Source of the DNA: a virus | Reading direction: 5' to 3' (one strand) | IMG/VR virus record: IMGVR_UViG_3300030118_001921 | Span: 1 to 24,959 of that record | Length of the DNA: 24,959 bases | Shown here: positions 8,282-21,426 of the stretch, one piece after another | How positions within the stretch are numbered: the first letter of the stretch is position 1 | Layout of the letters: each line of letters opens with the position of its first letter | Made by a program: the position numbers and the translations under genes | The notes under the pieces: generated by a model | The model's database searches: none | What the model saw: only the letters and a program-made list of their open reading frames with translations | Told to the model about the DNA's origin: nothing

Positions 8282-8289
8282 TAACTTTG
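8282..8289 (+). promoter_or_regulatory. Bacteroidota-type promoter core (TAACTTTG)
   Basis: A TAnnTTTG octamer lies in the 57-bp gap between portal and scaffold genes, 23 nt before the scaffold ATG. It would let scaffold and capsid be transcribed independently of terL and portal. A -33 element is not evident. Confidence 0.5.
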
Positions 8290-9469: not shown

Positions 9470-10900
9470 ATGGCAGGTTCAGTATCAGCAAGTCCTACTT
9501 TCGCACTACAACCTAGTGCAGAGCAGGTTGCTTTATCAACCAACTATATCACAGATTTTGATTTTACAAATCAGTATTTACCTGATACGTATGAAAAAGA
9601 ATTTGAAAGATATGGAAACCGTACTATTGCATCATTCTTAAGAATGGTGGGTGCGGAAATGCCTTCTAATTCTGACCTTATTAAATGGGCGGAACAAGGA
9701 AGGTTACACACTAAATATACAAATGTTACATTAGTAGGAGCTAACGCAGGTGATACTGCTACAGCAACTGTTAATGATACATTAGTACCGGGTAGTGGTG
9801 GAATAGCTGTGAGAAAAGGTCAAACAGTAATGTTTACTGACAACACAGCAGCTTCCAATTTAAGTAATAAGGCAATTATTACAGATGTAGATACAGCAAA
9901 CGGAACATTTGATGTAGCATTTTATGAAGCAGCAGGTATCGCAGCATATGCGGGAAGCGTTTCTGTATTTATTTATGGTTCAGAATTTAAAAAAGGAAGT
10001 GATGCAATGGAAGGCTCATTAGAGGCTGACGATGTAATCTTCAGTAATTCACCTATTATCTTAAAAGATAAATATGCGGTGAATGGTTCTGATATGGCTC
10101 AAATCGGTTGGGTAGAAATCCAAACAGAAGATGGAGCTACAGGTTATCTATGGTATCTAAAGTCTCAGCACGAGACTAGATTGAGATTCGATGATTACAT
10201 TGAAACTTCAATGATAGAAGCAGTTCCGGCAGTAGCAGGTTCAGGTGCAGCTAACGCAGCATTAAACCCTAACTACGGTAACAAAGGTTCAGAAGGTATC
10301 TTCTACGTTGTAGAGGAAAGAGGTAACATTTGGAGTGGTGGTAACCCATCAACACTAGCTGAGTTTGATAGCATTATTCAAAGACTAGACAACCAAGGAG
10401 CTATTGAAGAAAATGTAATTTTCGTAAATAGAGAATTTGGATTTGACGTTGATGATATGCTTGCAGCATTAAACGGTTTTAATGCCGGTGGTGCATCAAA
10501 TGCAGCTTCATTTGGTTTATTCGATAATGATGAAGAAATGGCTCTTAACCTTGGATTCCAAGGATTTAGAAGAGGTTATGATTTCTACAAGTCAGATTGG
10601 AAATACTTAAATGACCCAACAATGAGAGGTAACATAGTAGGTGGAGCAGTAAACGGACTATTAGTTCCTGCAGGTTCTACTACAGTTTATGACCAAATAC
10701 TTGGTAAAAACGCTAAGAGACCTTACTTGCACGTTAGATATAGAGCTTCTCAATCAGAAGACAGACGTTATAAATCTTGGATTACAGGTTCTGCAGGCGG
10801 AGCTATGACTTCAGGAAAAGACGTTATGGAAGTACACTTCCTGTCTGAAAGAGCAGTATGTACATTAGGTGCAAACAACTTCTTTATCTTCAAGAACTAA
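9470..10900 (+). CDS. Major capsid protein, HK97-fold type
   Basis: At 476 residues this has the expected size of a crAss-like capsid protein. It follows the scaffold by 29 nt and is closed by a strong terminator, as expected for the most abundant virion protein. The N-terminal arm reads QYLPDTYEKEFERYGNRTI and leads into MPSNSDLIKWAEQGRLHTKY. Residues ~85-180 form a beta-rich insert with VRKGQTVMFTDN, candidate for an inserted surface domain. The second half contains mixed alpha/beta segments such as NREFGFDVDDMLAALNGF and ends VHFLSERAVCTLGANNFFIF. It uses C-ending codons (TTC, AAC, TAC, ATC) more than its neighbours, fitting high expression. No protease cleavage site can be seen with certainty. 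Confidence 0.85.
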   Translation: MAGSVSASPTFALQPSAEQVALSTNYITDFDFTNQYLPDTYEKEFERYGNRTIASFLRMVGAEMPSNSDLIKWAEQGRLHTKYTNVTLVGANAGDTATATVNDTLVPGSGGIAVRKGQTVMFTDNTAASNLSNKAIITDVDTANGTFDVAFYEAAGIAAYAGSVSVFIYGSEFKKGSDAMEGSLEADDVIFSNSPIILKDKYAVNGSDMAQIGWVEIQTEDGATGYLWYLKSQHETRLRFDDYIETSMIEAVPAVAGSGAANAALNPNYGNKGSEGIFYVVEERGNIWSGGNPSTLAEFDSIIQRLDNQGAIEENVIFVNREFGFDVDDMLAALNGFNAGGASNAASFGLFDNDEEMALNLGFQGFRRGYDFYKSDWKYLNDPTMRGNIVGGAVNGLLVPAGSTTVYDQILGKNAKRPYLHVRYRASQSEDRRYKSWITGSAGGAMTSGKDVMEVHFLSERAVCTLGANNFFIFKN

Positions 10901-10920: not shown

Positions 10921-10948
10921 AGGGAGGAGTTTTCTCCTCCCTTTTTTT
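10921..10948 (+). terminator. Strong Rho-independent terminator after capsid gene
   Basis: A perfect 9-bp stem, AGGGAGGAG (10921-10929) with CTCCTCCCT (10934-10942), closes a TTTT loop. It is followed by a run of seven T (10942-10948, overlapping the last stem base). It lies 20 nt after the capsid stop. No promoter core is visible between it and the next ATG at 10972, so downstream expression may depend on readthrough. Confidence 0.92.
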
Positions 10949-10971: not shown

Positions 10972-11727
10972 ATGAAAAAAATTAAAAAACAGGAGATTAA
11001 GGCAAAAGCTTACAAGCTATGTCAAGATGCAACTCCTTTATCATATACAATCGCATCAAGAAATTCACGTAGATTTTCGTTATTACATTGGGATGAAGAA
11101 CAAGGCATAAACAGACCGTTAAGGTATGCAAGAAACCAAAAGTCTCCATTTGAAGATGAACAAGACGGAAATGCTATTTTAGAACCTGTTGTATTTGAAG
11201 ACGGGTTTTTAAGAGTTCCAAGAACTAATCAAGTATTGCAACAATTTTTAGCCTTACATCCACAAAACAAATCCAATGGAGGTACTGTGTTTGAAGAAAT
11301 AAATACTGAAAAAGATGCTGAGGCAGAAATTGAAGTATTAAACGCAGAAGTAGATGCTTTAATAACTGCAAGACAAATGGATTTAGACCAAGTTTTAGAA
11401 ATTGGTAGGGTTTTATTTGGAGATATATCTAAAATTTCAACAAAAGAAATTAAGAGAGATTTGCTTGTTTATGCAAGACGAGACCCTCAAGGTTTTTTAA
11501 ATCTTGTAGATGACCCAATGGTAAAGCTACAATCTAAAATTCAAACATTTTTTGATAATAAATTATTAGTCTTAAGAAATAAAGATGTTTATTATAATAC
11601 TAAGAGTAATAAAAAAAGAATGTTAGTTGTTCCTCAAGGTGAAAAACCACTTGAAATGGTGGCTTTGTATTTACAGTCAGATGATGGAATACAAGCTTTA
11701 AAAATGCTAGAAAATAAACTAGATTAA
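10972..11727 (+). CDS. Conserved-type phage protein of the capsid-neck region, unknown function
   Basis: This 251-residue protein is mostly helical and charged. The N-terminal half holds SYTIASRNSRRFSLLHWDEE and DGFLRVPRTNQVLQQFLALHP. The second half contains an acidic helix (TEKDAEAEIEVLNAEVDALI), then RDLLVYARRDPQGFLNLVDDP, and a C-terminal segment with YNTKSNKKRMLVVPQGEKP. There is no catalytic signature or membrane helix. It sits between two terminators, 71 nt after the capsid gene, so it may be made at low level by readthrough. Position suggests a minor capsid, head-completion or assembly protein; I cannot name it more exactly. Confidence 0.7.
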   Translation: MKKIKKQEIKAKAYKLCQDATPLSYTIASRNSRRFSLLHWDEEQGINRPLRYARNQKSPFEDEQDGNAILEPVVFEDGFLRVPRTNQVLQQFLALHPQNKSNGGTVFEEINTEKDAEAEIEVLNAEVDALITARQMDLDQVLEIGRVLFGDISKISTKEIKRDLLVYARRDPQGFLNLVDDPMVKLQSKIQTFFDNKLLVLRNKDVYYNTKSNKKRMLVVPQGEKPLEMVALYLQSDDGIQALKMLENKLD

Positions 11728-11752
11728 ACATACTAATATATAGTGGTTTGAA

Positions 11753-11785
11753 GGGGCTGTCTTAAAAAGCAGTCTCTTTTTTTTT
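11753..11785 (+). terminator. Rho-independent terminator, fused to next promoter
   Basis: An imperfect stem pairs GGGGCTG (11753-11759) with CAGTCTC (11770-11776), with two G-U pairs. It is extended by CTT/AAG across a one-base bulge, with an AAA loop, and followed by nine T (11777-11785). The T-run leads directly into a TAnnTTTG promoter core three bases later. Confidence 0.75.
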
Positions 11786-11787
11786 GT

Positions 11788-11795
11788 TATCTTTG
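11788..11795 (+). promoter_or_regulatory. Bacteroidota-type promoter core (TATCTTTG)
   Basis: This perfect TAnnTTTG core follows the terminator T-run and precedes the ATG at 11823 by 27 nt. The stretch 11774-11797 (CTC, nine T, then GTTATCTTTGTA) is identical to 12595-12618, which supports function. Confidence 0.72.
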
Positions 11796-11822
11796 TATTT
11801 TAATAATAAAAATTTTATACAC

Positions 11823-12545
11823 ATGGCAAAACTTATTTCTATTCCTGTAGCCAAAGAAACAGGTATATCAGGAACAACAACGTTAGTGGCTTCAGGAACT
11901 GCAACAAGTTACACAGCCAATAAACTAACAGACTCCGGTGCTACATTTATTACAGATTTAGTAGCAGTTGGAGATACAGTCAAAGATGTTACAAACGGTG
12001 ATACAGCTTTAGTAACAGCAATTGATTCAGAAACTGTATTATCATTAGATACTGACATTTTTAGTGCATCTAATGAAGATTATGAGGTTTCAGTACCGGC
12101 AAATGAATTGTTTGACAGTTCAGCCGATTTTAGTTCAGGCGTTTCAGCAGGTGATTGGGTAATCAATACCACAGCAAATCCTGATACAGATGCAAAAGTT
12201 AAGCATATAAAAAGTAAATTCAGGTTAGAATTAACAGAAAATATAATGTCCGTAAGTGAAGCATATAAGCTTGTTGAAGGTAAAGCAACTTCAAATCAAT
12301 ATATTAGCTCAAGCGATATAGTGATGGTACAAAGAACAGGCGATTTGTCTACAGTTATTTCTTTAAATACATTAAGTAACAATACTTGTACATTAGTAAC
12401 AACTACAGATAGTGCTGCTAATGAGTATGTAAAGAAAGCGGTTCAATTAGCAATGGTAAAAGCAGAGCAAGGTGCTCCTGCAATTCCTGTTGAAGTAGAA
12501 ATTGTTCCACCGGATGTACAAATTTTAAGTGTGGATTTATCATAA
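11823..12545 (+). CDS. Neck/head-region protein with repeated beta module
   Basis: This 240-residue protein starts at the ATG at 11823. A longer frame from a TTG at 11784 is rejected because that start overlaps the terminator T-run and promoter core. Residues 33-89 form a module of the pattern 'KLTDSGATF...VAVGDTV...VTAIDSETVLSLDTDIF...YEV', followed by a shorter second copy at 92-130 (ELFDSSADFSSGVSAGDWVINTT). The same module sits inside the next protein. The C-terminal half has strands such as DIVMVQRTGDLSTVISL and a helix near AANEYVKKAVQLAMVKAEQG. It is flanked on both sides by terminator-promoter junctions, so it is effectively monocistronic. A virion-surface or neck accessory protein is likely; dosage may be regulated separately. 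Confidence 0.72.
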   Translation: MAKLISIPVAKETGISGTTTLVASGTATSYTANKLTDSGATFITDLVAVGDTVKDVTNGDTALVTAIDSETVLSLDTDIFSASNEDYEVSVPANELFDSSADFSSGVSAGDWVINTTANPDTDAKVKHIKSKFRLELTENIMSVSEAYKLVEGKATSNQYISSSDIVMVQRTGDLSTVISLNTLSNNTCTLVTTTDSAANEYVKKAVQLAMVKAEQGAPAIPVEVEIVPPDVQILSVDLS

Positions 12546-12572
12546 ATCCTTTTTGTTTTTTGATTGTTTGGG

Positions 12573-12606
12573 AAGAGGGCAAAAAAATAATGCCCTCTTT
12601 TTTTTT
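12573..12606 (+). terminator. Rho-independent terminator, fused to next promoter
   Basis: A perfect 9-bp stem pairs AAGAGGGCA (12573-12581) with TGCCCTCTT (12591-12599) around a 9-nt A-rich loop, followed by a nine-T run (12598-12606) that overlaps the stem end. It lies 27 nt after the stop of the 240-aa gene. Confidence 0.9.
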
Positions 12607-12608
12607 GT

Positions 12609-12616
12609 TATCTTTG
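12609..12616 (+). promoter_or_regulatory. Bacteroidota-type promoter core (TATCTTTG)
   Basis: This perfect TAnnTTTG core begins three bases after the terminator T-run and 15 nt before the ATG at 12632, giving a very short leader. It lies in the same 24-bp identical block found at 11774-11797. Confidence 0.75.
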
Positions 12617-12631
12617 TAAAAAAGTATTTAT

Positions 12632-13612
12632 ATGATAAATAGTGTAAGGGAAACTGTATTAAGTGTACTCAATAAAAATAATTACGGCTATGTATCTCCT
12701 CAAGACTTTAATTTATTTGCTAAACAAGCTCAATTAGACTTGTTTGAAGATATTTTTTATCAATACAACTATCAAATAAATAAAGAAACTGCGAGACAGT
12801 CGGGTACAGGATATGCTAATATTACTAAAGGCATAGTAGAGGTTATAGATTTATTTTCCGTTTTATCTCCTTTAACACTTCAACAAGATGGTGCAGGTAA
12901 CAATGTTATTAGTAATATTTACCAAATGCCTTCAGAATTAACTACAGGAAGTGATTACTATTTAATCAATAAAGTATTGTGTTATAACAATCAATTAGTT
13001 TCTAGTACCACAACAGGTAATACAGATTATAAATTAATAGATAACACCCAAAACTTTACAAGCACTTCAATACCTGTGGGTAGTTTAGTTGTAAATATTA
13101 ATAGTGCAAATCCAATTTATGCTTACGTAACTGCAGTTGACAGCACATCAGTTTTATCATTAAGTGCAAATGTTATGGGCACAATAGAAGATTATGTAAT
13201 TTATAATAATGTTATAAGTGCGGAAGCAGAAAGAGTTAGTCAGAGTAAAATTAATATGTTAATAAATTCAAATGTTAATATGTTGACTTCGCCTACAACT
13301 TTATATCCTGCATATACCACTCAAGGAAGTTTAATATCTTTGTATCCCGTTACTATTAATCAACCGGGCCAAGTGTTTGCTCAGTATATAAGATACCCGG
13401 CAGACCCACAATGGACATTTACTACAATTACAGGCAATGAACCTGTATTTAACGAAAGTGCTGCAAACTATCAAGATTTTGAGTTACCGGAAGATTATGA
13501 ACCGGATTTAGTAACAAAAATATTAAGCTATTCAGGAATGTCAATAAGAGAGATTCAAGTAGCACAATACGCAGAAAGCGAAGAAAACATGGATAACCAA
13601 ACTGAAAGATAA
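12632..13612 (+). CDS. Neck/ring (tail adaptor) protein with inserted beta module
   Basis: This 326-residue protein opens with helices (SVRETVLSVLNKNNYGYVSP, then FNLFAKQAQLDLFEDIFYQY), as in podovirus neck adaptor proteins. Residues 133-191 are an inserted copy of the 'DYKLIDNTQNFTSTSIPVG...VTAVDSTSVLSL...YVI' module shared with the preceding gene. The C-terminal part reads VFAQYIRYPADPQWTF, then NYQDFELPEDYEPDLVTKIL and SGMSIREIQVAQYAE, a pattern I associate with ring proteins of Bacteroidota podoviruses and marine relatives. It begins a new transcript at the 12609 promoter core and overlaps the next gene by one base (TAATG), implying coupled translation. The ring role is inferred from order and pattern. 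Confidence 0.68.
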   Translation: MINSVRETVLSVLNKNNYGYVSPQDFNLFAKQAQLDLFEDIFYQYNYQINKETARQSGTGYANITKGIVEVIDLFSVLSPLTLQQDGAGNNVISNIYQMPSELTTGSDYYLINKVLCYNNQLVSSTTTGNTDYKLIDNTQNFTSTSIPVGSLVVNINSANPIYAYVTAVDSTSVLSLSANVMGTIEDYVIYNNVISAEAERVSQSKINMLINSNVNMLTSPTTLYPAYTTQGSLISLYPVTINQPGQVFAQYIRYPADPQWTFTTITGNEPVFNESAANYQDFELPEDYEPDLVTKILSYSGMSIREIQVAQYAESEENMDNQTER

Positions 13613-20571: not shown

Positions 20572-21411
20572 ATGCCGAATTATACATTAACATATAGCGA
20601 ATCAGTAAACGGATGGCCTTCGTTCTACTCTTATTATCCTGAGTGGATAATAGGTATGAATCAATATTTATACACATTTAATGGTGGCAGATTGTGGAGA
20701 CATAACGTAAACGACAATAGAAACTCATATTACGGTGATACTTCAGTAGGCTCTATGATGAAAAGTGTTATAAATGATATGCCTTTGCAAAATAAATTAT
20801 TTAAAACAATAAATTTAGAATCAGATTTAGCGTGGGATACAATATTAGAAACCGATATACAGACTACAGGTTTTATTAATGCAGCCGATTATGAGCAAAA
20901 AGAAGCTTCATGGTTTGCTTATGTAAGAAATCAAGGTACTACCCCTGCTAATGCAGGCCAAGAATTTCCCTTAAGGTCAGTAAATGGTATAGGAAGAAGC
21001 AATACATTAGATGCTACAACACCGAGTGCAGTAATTGTAGGGTTTCCACAAACCACTACAATAGCAAATGTACAGCCGGGCACATTAGGTGTGGGAGATG
21101 CTTTGTATTTTATTGACCCTGTAGGTGGTAATATACCTGCAAATGCAGCTCCTGTTTATGCAGGAGTAATAACTGCTCAAAATGTGGATTTAAACGCAGA
21201 CCCTTATGTTAATACATTAGTGGTCGACACTACCGTTGTAGATGCCACAGCCCCCACTAATACAGACGCTTATTATATGGTTGTAAAAAATCAGGTAGTA
21301 GAATCACACGGAGTATTAGGGCATTACTGTATTTTTAAAATAACTAACAACAGTACAAACCCTACTGAACTATTTGCGGTTGAATCTGAGGTTATGAAAA
21401 GTTATCCTTAA
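20572..21411 (+). CDS. Tail structural protein
   Basis: This 279-residue protein begins TLTYSESVNGWPSFYSYYPEW and continues NQYLYTFNGGRLWRHNVNDN, then LFKTINLESDLAWDTILETD. The 'YSESV.GW.SF.S..PE.....N..Y.F..G.LW.HN' pattern recurs in tail-tube or stabilisation proteins of short-tailed phages and in marine phage structural proteins. A beta domain around residues ~150-215 (PSAVIVGFPQTTTIANVQPG, then GVGDALYFIDPVGG) appears inserted. It lies 6 nt after the module protein. The role is probably tail structural; the exact subunit is not identifiable. Confidence 0.65.
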   Translation: MPNYTLTYSESVNGWPSFYSYYPEWIIGMNQYLYTFNGGRLWRHNVNDNRNSYYGDTSVGSMMKSVINDMPLQNKLFKTINLESDLAWDTILETDIQTTGFINAADYEQKEASWFAYVRNQGTTPANAGQEFPLRSVNGIGRSNTLDATTPSAVIVGFPQTTTIANVQPGTLGVGDALYFIDPVGGNIPANAAPVYAGVITAQNVDLNADPYVNTLVVDTTVVDATAPTNTDAYYMVVKNQVVESHGVLGHYCIFKITNNSTNPTELFAVESEVMKSYP

Positions 21412-21418
21412 AAATTAG

Positions 21419-21426
21419 TATCTTTG
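21419..21426 (+). promoter_or_regulatory. Bacteroidota-type promoter core (TATCTTTG), near-leaderless
   Basis: A perfect TAnnTTTG core ends only 6 nt before the ATG at 21433, so a transcript from it would start at or very near the start codon. No terminator is seen just upstream, so the gene may also be read from upstream transcripts. Confidence 0.6.

Follow-up and report, generated by a model that had tools for sequence, protein, structure and literature searches.

A putative composite of terminator and promoter at the capsid/neck boundary in a lineage of Bacteroidota podoviruses, and the accessory genes in front of it

The late module and its two junctions

The DNA analysed here (hereafter the window) is a whole virus record, a linear sequence of 24,959 bases. 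It bears a podovirus late module in which genes for the terminase, the portal, a scaffold-like protein and the major capsid protein (MCP) are followed by a 251-aa gene, a 240-aa gene, a neck-region gene and more structural genes (Table 1). The labels 'MCP', 'scaffold' and 'neck' were assigned from gene position, PHROG class and inference. At 20572-21411, the record encodes a crassvirus muzzle C-terminal domain (PF25729). Named phages related to the window by their MCP, neck or terminase genes include phi38:1, phi40:1, Calle and phi13:2 (all Cellulophaga), Elemovirus (Flavobacterium), Maribacter phage Panino, Tenacibaculum phage Gundel_1 and MW202828; phi13:2 is the outgroup of a sequence analysis in the accessible part of PMC10172136. 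The gene order terminase, portal, scaffold, MCP, ~250-aa gene and neck gene is common to the window, Pervagoviridae and Elemovirus, in line with kinship to Crassvirales and flavophages. In Pachyviridae, this order is kept with genes inserted (phi13:2) or with the terminase and portal genes elsewhere (Gundel_1).

Table 1. Features of the window around the capsid and neck genes
Feature	Position	Strand	Basis and remarks
-7 box TAACTTTG of the putative promoter of the scaffold gene (start 8313), lacking both a hairpin and a long T-tract	8282-8289	+	Motif scan; among relatives, box 62/66, hairpin 1
MCP gene, 476 aa, phrog_13704 'virion structural protein'	9470-10900	+	MCP by position and inference
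Terminator-like hairpin and T-run between the capsid and 251-aa genes, no promoter box after it	10921-10948	+	Terminator scan
251-aa gene closing the putative capsid transcription unit, phrog_34748	10972-11727	+	ORF, PHROG
Hairpin 1, putative terminator stem-loop after the 251-aa gene (stop 11727)	11750-11779	+	11 pairs, 8-nt loop; RNAfold and pattern scan
Core copy 1: CTC, T9 (11777-11785), G, T, -7 box TATCTTTG (11788-11795), TA	11774-11797	+	Exact match
240-aa inserted accessory gene, ATG at 11823	11823-12545	+	ORF; relatives at the same locus; domain repeat
Hairpin 2, putative terminator stem-loop after the 240-aa gene	12572-12600	+	10 pairs, 9-nt loop; RNAfold
Core copy 2, the lineage-wide conserved junction: CTC, T9 (12598-12606), G, T, -7 box TATCTTTG (12609-12616), TA	12595-12618	+	Exact match; 69/69 scorable MCP-relative loci
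Neck-region gene, 326 aa, phrog_14543; start marked by the conserved junction	12632-13612	+	ORF, PHROG

A preliminary description of this DNA had proposed that the 240-aa gene is bordered on both sides by a hairpin, a nine-T run and a promoter core, forming a compact insulated junction around one gene. Both units were located by RNAfold and exact matching, each in the 5' to 3' order hairpin, U-tract, promoter core, and the proposal holds well as anatomy. The 24-mer CTC-T9-GTTATCTTTGTA is present in two exact copies on the + strand, at the positions first given for it. The hairpins that abut these copies on the 5' side are unlike each other in sequence, as had also been reported. A search of the rest of the window at up to 3 mismatches returned no further match, and 100 dinucleotide shuffles contained none, which rules out a chance repeat. 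Of the two hairpins, a simple terminator scan with a loop limit of 8 picked up the first and missed the second, the loop of which has 9 nt.

The promoter core of the block, TATCTTTG, matches the Bacteroidota sigma-A -7 box TAnnTTTG. According to the accessible text of PMC9723704, TAnnTTTG is the flavobacterial consensus, and the box occupies positions -12 to -5 in Flavobacterium psychrophilum. With this geometry, transcription is predicted to start near 11800 and 12621, giving predicted leaders of 23 nt (11800 to 11823) and 11 nt (12621 to 12632). A scan for E. coli-type (sigma-70) promoters, which is unsuited to promoters of the Bacteroidota type, gave none at either block on this strand. Within the window, TAnnTTTG alone is not enriched (24 found versus 40 expected) and TATCTTTG is slightly so (5 found versus 1.8 expected); the case for the core therefore rests on its position and conservation and not on such counts. 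No known RNA family reached the gathering score within 11400-12960.

Further TAnnTTTG boxes at 1674-1681 and 21419-21426 end 6-25 nt before the gene starts at 1707 and 21433 and are candidate promoters of the same type without a hairpin.

Conservation of the junction in front of the neck gene

We collected 80 IMG/VR loci of MCP relatives without using the block, 69 of which were scorable at the neck gene and 11 not. Near-duplicates are present among the 69, which correspond to 62 distinct junctions. A second set of 119 loci, selected through the block itself and hence a biased sample, included 4 that could not be scored at the neck gene. The scan took the box nearest to the ATG within 80 nt. 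In the MCP-found set, a box and a T-run precede the neck gene in 69/69 cases, with an abutting hairpin in 67/69; junctions lacking a hairpin by the criterion used number 2/69 in this set and 6/115 in the block-found set. The geometry is narrow: the T-run, 6-11 long, begins 7-14 nt ahead of the box, and 13-21 nt separate the end of the box from the neck ATG (13-18 nt in 68/69 cases).

Other gene starts of these loci were scored for a box, for a box with T-run and for both with a hairpin. The scaffold gene has 62, 15 and 1, respectively, out of 66. The corresponding figures are 0, 0 and 0 of 79 for the MCP gene, 1, 0 and 0 of 77 for the 251-aa gene, 4, 0 and 0 of 58 for the first gene after the neck gene, and 0, 0 and 0 of 55 for the second. 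The portal gene has a box in 45 cases out of 49, never with a T-run or a hairpin. We left these portal boxes out of account: the examples inspected end within the terminase gene, 44-45 nt short of the portal start, and a T-run accompanies none of the boxes.

The exact 24-mer has at least 119 copies in IMG/VR, and all 119 listed sit at most 150 nt upstream of a neck gene, on the same strand. It is found at only 1/69 MCP-found neck junctions, and the architecture at 69/69. The exact sequence therefore marks some clades, and the architecture marks the lineage. What relatives had been expected to share, the block behind a hairpin, is conserved across the lineage in its architecture.

The hairpins behave likewise. 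Among 56 distinct neck-junction hairpin regions, 54 have a stem score of at least 8, versus 16.5% of dinucleotide shuffles; chimeras made of two natural hairpin arms attain that score in 48.7% of cases, and the median MFE z of the natural regions is -4.2. The same 56 regions contain 49 distinct 5' arms, showing that sequences vary and stems persist. A stable stem directly followed by a U-tract, the feature of intrinsic terminators, is present in 54/56 distinct regions.

Among the named phages, a fused junction also precedes the neck gene in phi38:1 (Pervagoviridae), Elemovirus and MW202828. Three others have the two parts separate. Panino has a terminator-like hairpin behind its ~250-aa gene, then five annotated genes, and after these the box that precedes the neck gene. 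In Gundel_1, tens of bases separate the hairpin from the box. Between its counterparts of the ~250-aa and neck genes, phi13:2 (L206 16869-19742) has, in this order, a terminator-like hairpin, eleven genes on the minus strand and a box. These unfused arrangements suggest that the terminator/promoter pair at this boundary is older than its fusion, or that the fusion was split repeatedly.

Accessory genes in the gap

The gap between the 251-aa and neck genes contains 1-4 extra ORFs in 11/69 MCP-found loci and in 83/104 loci of the biased, block-found sample. On a tree of 123 MCPs, obtained by a quick search with SH-aLRT support only, presence or absence of an insert changed at least 13 times, 10 of these changes being forced by supported branches. 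The relative that pairs with the window on this tree (L039, support 98, long branches) has no insert.

Single linkage places 154 of the 159 insert proteins (125 distinct) in one superfamily; clustering at 30% identity and 70% coverage gives 13 clusters in all. The 240-aa protein of the window belongs to the large group. It harbours a domain of ~60 aa twice (residues 22-87 and 95-148) and a C-terminal part common to insert proteins of ~92 aa. The ~60-aa domain is also found inside the neck protein of the window (35% identity over 68 aa). With 326 aa, the latter is longer than its counterparts in phi38:1, Elemovirus and MW202828 (232-256 aa by annotated gene lengths), and the shared domain of ~65 aa may therefore have moved between the insert and the neighbouring neck gene.

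A structural model of the 240-aa protein (mean pLDDT 79) matched viral proteins of 91-108 aa in BFVD, with TM-scores of 0.61-0.72 (target) and E values of 0.0017-0.0065. Fold matches in the PDB all had E values above 0.001, and no match to PHROG or Pfam was found for this protein. Two weak matches obtained for single relatives were not considered credible. The 240-aa protein is probably a virion surface protein.

We then considered how insert genes are preceded. Among the 73 distinct first insert genes, a fused junction stands before 42, a box and T-run before 1, a box alone before 27 and none of these before 3, with a classifier that misses variants such as L123 (fused junction with a mutated box) and L114 (A+T-rich stem). 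Most later insert genes (48 of 53) have no box. This distribution is as expected for added transcription units: an insert would usually bring its own promoter, in many cases preceded by a terminator, and later insert genes would be read from the start of the first.

In four loci (L081, L093, L165 and L194), the insert gene begins 4 nt after the -7 box (TATCTTTGTGGTATG), and by the F. psychrophilum geometry the mRNA is predicted to be leaderless, starting on the ATG. The second insert gene of L194 has a stretch of the 94-aa-type gene in tandem duplicate, with only a 67-aa ORF called.

Breakpoints of gene exchange

We made eight alignments of related loci. One (L187/L118) repeats a pattern seen in another pair and one (L012/L051) joins two loci that both carry an insert, leaving six informative pairs with versus without insert. 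The break falls where the neck hairpin begins on its 5' side in four of them (L147/L112, L187/L116, L114/L102 and L151/L118; the pattern repeated by L187/L118), so that hairpin and core stay with the neck gene. In the other two (L057/L066 and L080/L040), it falls in the 3' arm of the hairpin or in the T-run. As four of the six breaks coincide with the 5' edge of the hairpin, the block appears usually to be a fixed edge and not the seam.

An alternative is that the core itself is the seam of recombination, as proposed for the promoter early stem-loops (PeSLs) of T4-like phages, with repeated cores recombining so that short homology lets cassettes swap, and that the window's identical cores are the footprint of copying. 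Such a seam would account for the identity of the two 24-bp cores that flank the window's gene, for the two breaks within the hairpin arm or T-run, and for the same four loci L081, L093, L165 and L194, in which a gene looks inserted between hairpin and core: the neck-proximal core stands without a hairpin directly behind a gene of the 94-aa type, and a hairpin and core lie upstream of that gene. However, most informative breaks fall outside the core, and among 42 distinct loci with a fused first-insert junction, the window is the only one whose insert core is identical to that of the neck gene; besides, any shared flank would serve homologous recombination. We consider this explanation unlikely as a general one; the core can probably act as a seam, and mostly seems to be a fixed edge.

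The same figures make it doubtful that the element was 'duplicated', as first described. In L076, T9GTTATCTTTGTA stands at the insert junction and a different core at the neck gene, indicating that this sequence can arise at an insert junction without being copied from the neck core. With identical cores at 1/42 loci, there is no support for deriving the window's two cores from recent duplication alone; copying within the window is possible but unnecessary. The related idea that the gene is exchangeable as a cassette is in keeping with the repeated changes in presence and absence on the MCP tree, but the break seems usually to lie just upstream of the hairpin, outside the block.

The T-tract and the promoter

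The Bacteroidota sigma-A consensus includes a -33 TTG element. Sought 15-26 nt upstream of the box, it is mostly absent, being present at 9/62 and 0/59 distinct neck junctions, and scaffold promoters mostly lack it as well (present in 8/57 and 2/30). The predicted promoter may accordingly be weak or depend on another factor.

If the box lies at -12 to -5, as in the accessible text of PMC9723704, the T9 run would span about -23 to -15. The U-tract had been proposed to serve both as termination tract and as upstream promoter DNA, and by position the overlap is real. A role in promoter function fares less well. In the same phages, a T-run of at least 7 is found at 7/87 distinct scaffold-promoter sites versus 117/121 sites at the neck gene, and first-insert promoters have T-tracts almost only together with hairpins (42 fused junctions versus 1 box with T-run, and 27 boxes alone). 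The overlap thus appears to be positional, the T-tract tracking the terminator and not promoters generally.

A truly dual T-tract, which would terminate transcription and also replace the missing -33 element, is accordingly a doubtful reading. It would fit the location of the T-run and the general lack of the -33 TTG at fused junctions, the T-run retained in a few hairpin-less cores, and some other promoter-like sites with a T-run and no hairpin, although these sites were chosen for their T-run. Against it, scaffold promoters mostly do without both the -33 TTG and a long T-run, 27 of the 73 first-insert promoters consist of a box alone, and the hairpin-less cores may be too recent for the T-run to have decayed.

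Occurrence in host genomes and elsewhere in phages

The 24-mer is absent from a genome collection of 84,980 species with one genome each, and the idea of a host-derived element was rejected on this ground. The shorter T9GTTATCTTTGTA has 5 matches in cellular genomes, all in Hallella/Prevotella, one of them with a hairpin (L234). The pattern T8, 1-3 bases and TATCTTTG occurs in 7/61 sampled Bacteroidota genomes, seed genome included, and several times in two Prevotella-type genomes. A hairpin abuts 6/23 of the host sites examined, giving hairpin, T-run of at least eight and TATCTTTG fused in Bacteroidota chromosomes (L244, L251, L252, L256, L257 and L259). The fused architecture thus appears to be available to the hosts and rare there; chromosomal sites share it with the phage junction, but the latter is found at a fixed position.

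One or more sites with T6 and a box, a less strict pattern than was applied to the hosts, occur in each of 20 long phage records. At 2 of 19 non-neck places examined in these records, a strong stem abuts the T-run, the stems being judged by eye from the fold. These two cases (L211 in G004 and L223 in G017) are fused units of hairpin, T-run and box located elsewhere in two related phages. The L223 unit precedes the apparent counterpart of window gene 2515-2742, a gene without a comparable gap in the window.

Nature of the hairpins

The hairpin and T-run between the MCP and 251-aa genes, with no promoter box, recur in 65/77 relatives. Scored in the same way, three other gene starts never have a hairpin and T-run (0/79, 0/58 and 0/55), and the scaffold gene has them in 3/66 cases. 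This hairpin is probably an attenuator, which would raise MCP transcripts above those of the 251-aa gene.

It also bears on the view that the junction hairpins protect or process mRNA ends instead of terminating transcription. Sequence by itself does not separate the two functions, and a similar structure is found inside the capsid unit, where complete termination would shut off the 251-aa gene. Partial termination is compatible with that hairpin, however, and a T-run of 6-11 nt at every scorable neck junction, with an abutting stem at 67 of them, is the signature of intrinsic termination. We regard a processing signal as improbable. A chance origin of the block in A+T-rich phage DNA, where T-runs and TAnnTTTG are common, can be dismissed, given two copies against none expected, its architecture at 69/69 starts of one gene and nearly none of the others, and at least 119 copies in IMG/VR versus 0 in the cellular genome collection.

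Discussion

It is likely that the block is the middle of a composite terminator-promoter at a fixed boundary between capsid and neck genes, with a docking gap in front of it. Transcripts from upstream would end at the hairpin and T9, and the -7 box right behind them, of the host sigma-A type, would restart transcription for the next gene. The copy at 12595-12618 would be the old, fixed boundary in this lineage of Bacteroidota podoviruses between a capsid unit (scaffold, MCP and 251-aa genes) and a neck/tail unit, with high-copy capsid genes expressed independently of the low-copy neck/tail ones. The gap just upstream of this boundary would be a docking site for the gain and loss of accessory genes, almost all from a single superfamily, and in the window phage it would be occupied by the 240-aa gene with its own composite junction (11750-11797).

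We found no description of a junction of this kind in the literature searched, most subscription papers being outside its coverage. Three known systems are comparable in part, PeSLs being the closest in kind. Lambdoid morons are accessory genes with their own promoter and terminator, located between two genes of a structural operon. The window's gene resembles them in having elements on both sides and in being absent from the relative L039. In contrast with morons, the neighbouring genes here also own a terminator and a promoter at that point. Furthermore, the inserts resemble virion parts, whereas moron genes are expressed from prophages, and the window is not known as a prophage.

PeSLs are described as 'composite conserved promoter-terminator motifs' (Arbiol 2010 and Comeau 2014, via the accessible parts of PMC4503421 and PMC3950731). 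As far as those sources describe them, the likeness is that of a composite of promoter and stem-loop in the intergenic DNA of tailed phages, tied to gain and loss of neighbouring genes. They differ in that PeSLs occur at high density, whereas the present junction lies at one fixed place in a late structural module, with one or a few copies per genome. They also differ in promoter, a T4 early promoter versus a Bacteroidota -7 box, and here the break appears usually to fall outside the element. T4-like phages and T4-type early promoters define that family; the window has a late module, belongs to another phage lineage and shows no sigma-70-type promoter. The junction would work like a PeSL, outside the T4 PeSL family.

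In the haloarchaeal virus HGTV-1, composite regulatory motifs were likened to PeSLs by their authors (PMC3950731, accessible part). There, too, a conserved promoter-like region with an inverted repeat lies ahead of genes, but according to the same text the promoter is archaeal and TATA-box-like, and the motif precedes most ORFs of one genome arm instead of marking a single locus.

We see the chances as about even that the composite is an obligate capsid/neck-tail boundary throughout this lineage, with a docking site of accessory virion genes in front of it that often bring composite junctions of their own, and that it evolved independently as a late, single-locus counterpart of PeSLs. It offers a second, apparently independent case of promoter-terminator composites tied to gene exchange, testable in the cultured phage phi38:1. 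For mostly uncultured Bacteroidota phages, the succession of hairpin, T-run and TATCTTTG offers a landmark for dividing late operons into transcription units, and the gap in front of the junction designates a hotspot for accessory virion genes. The junctions also suggest short natural insulators for Bacteroidota genetics.
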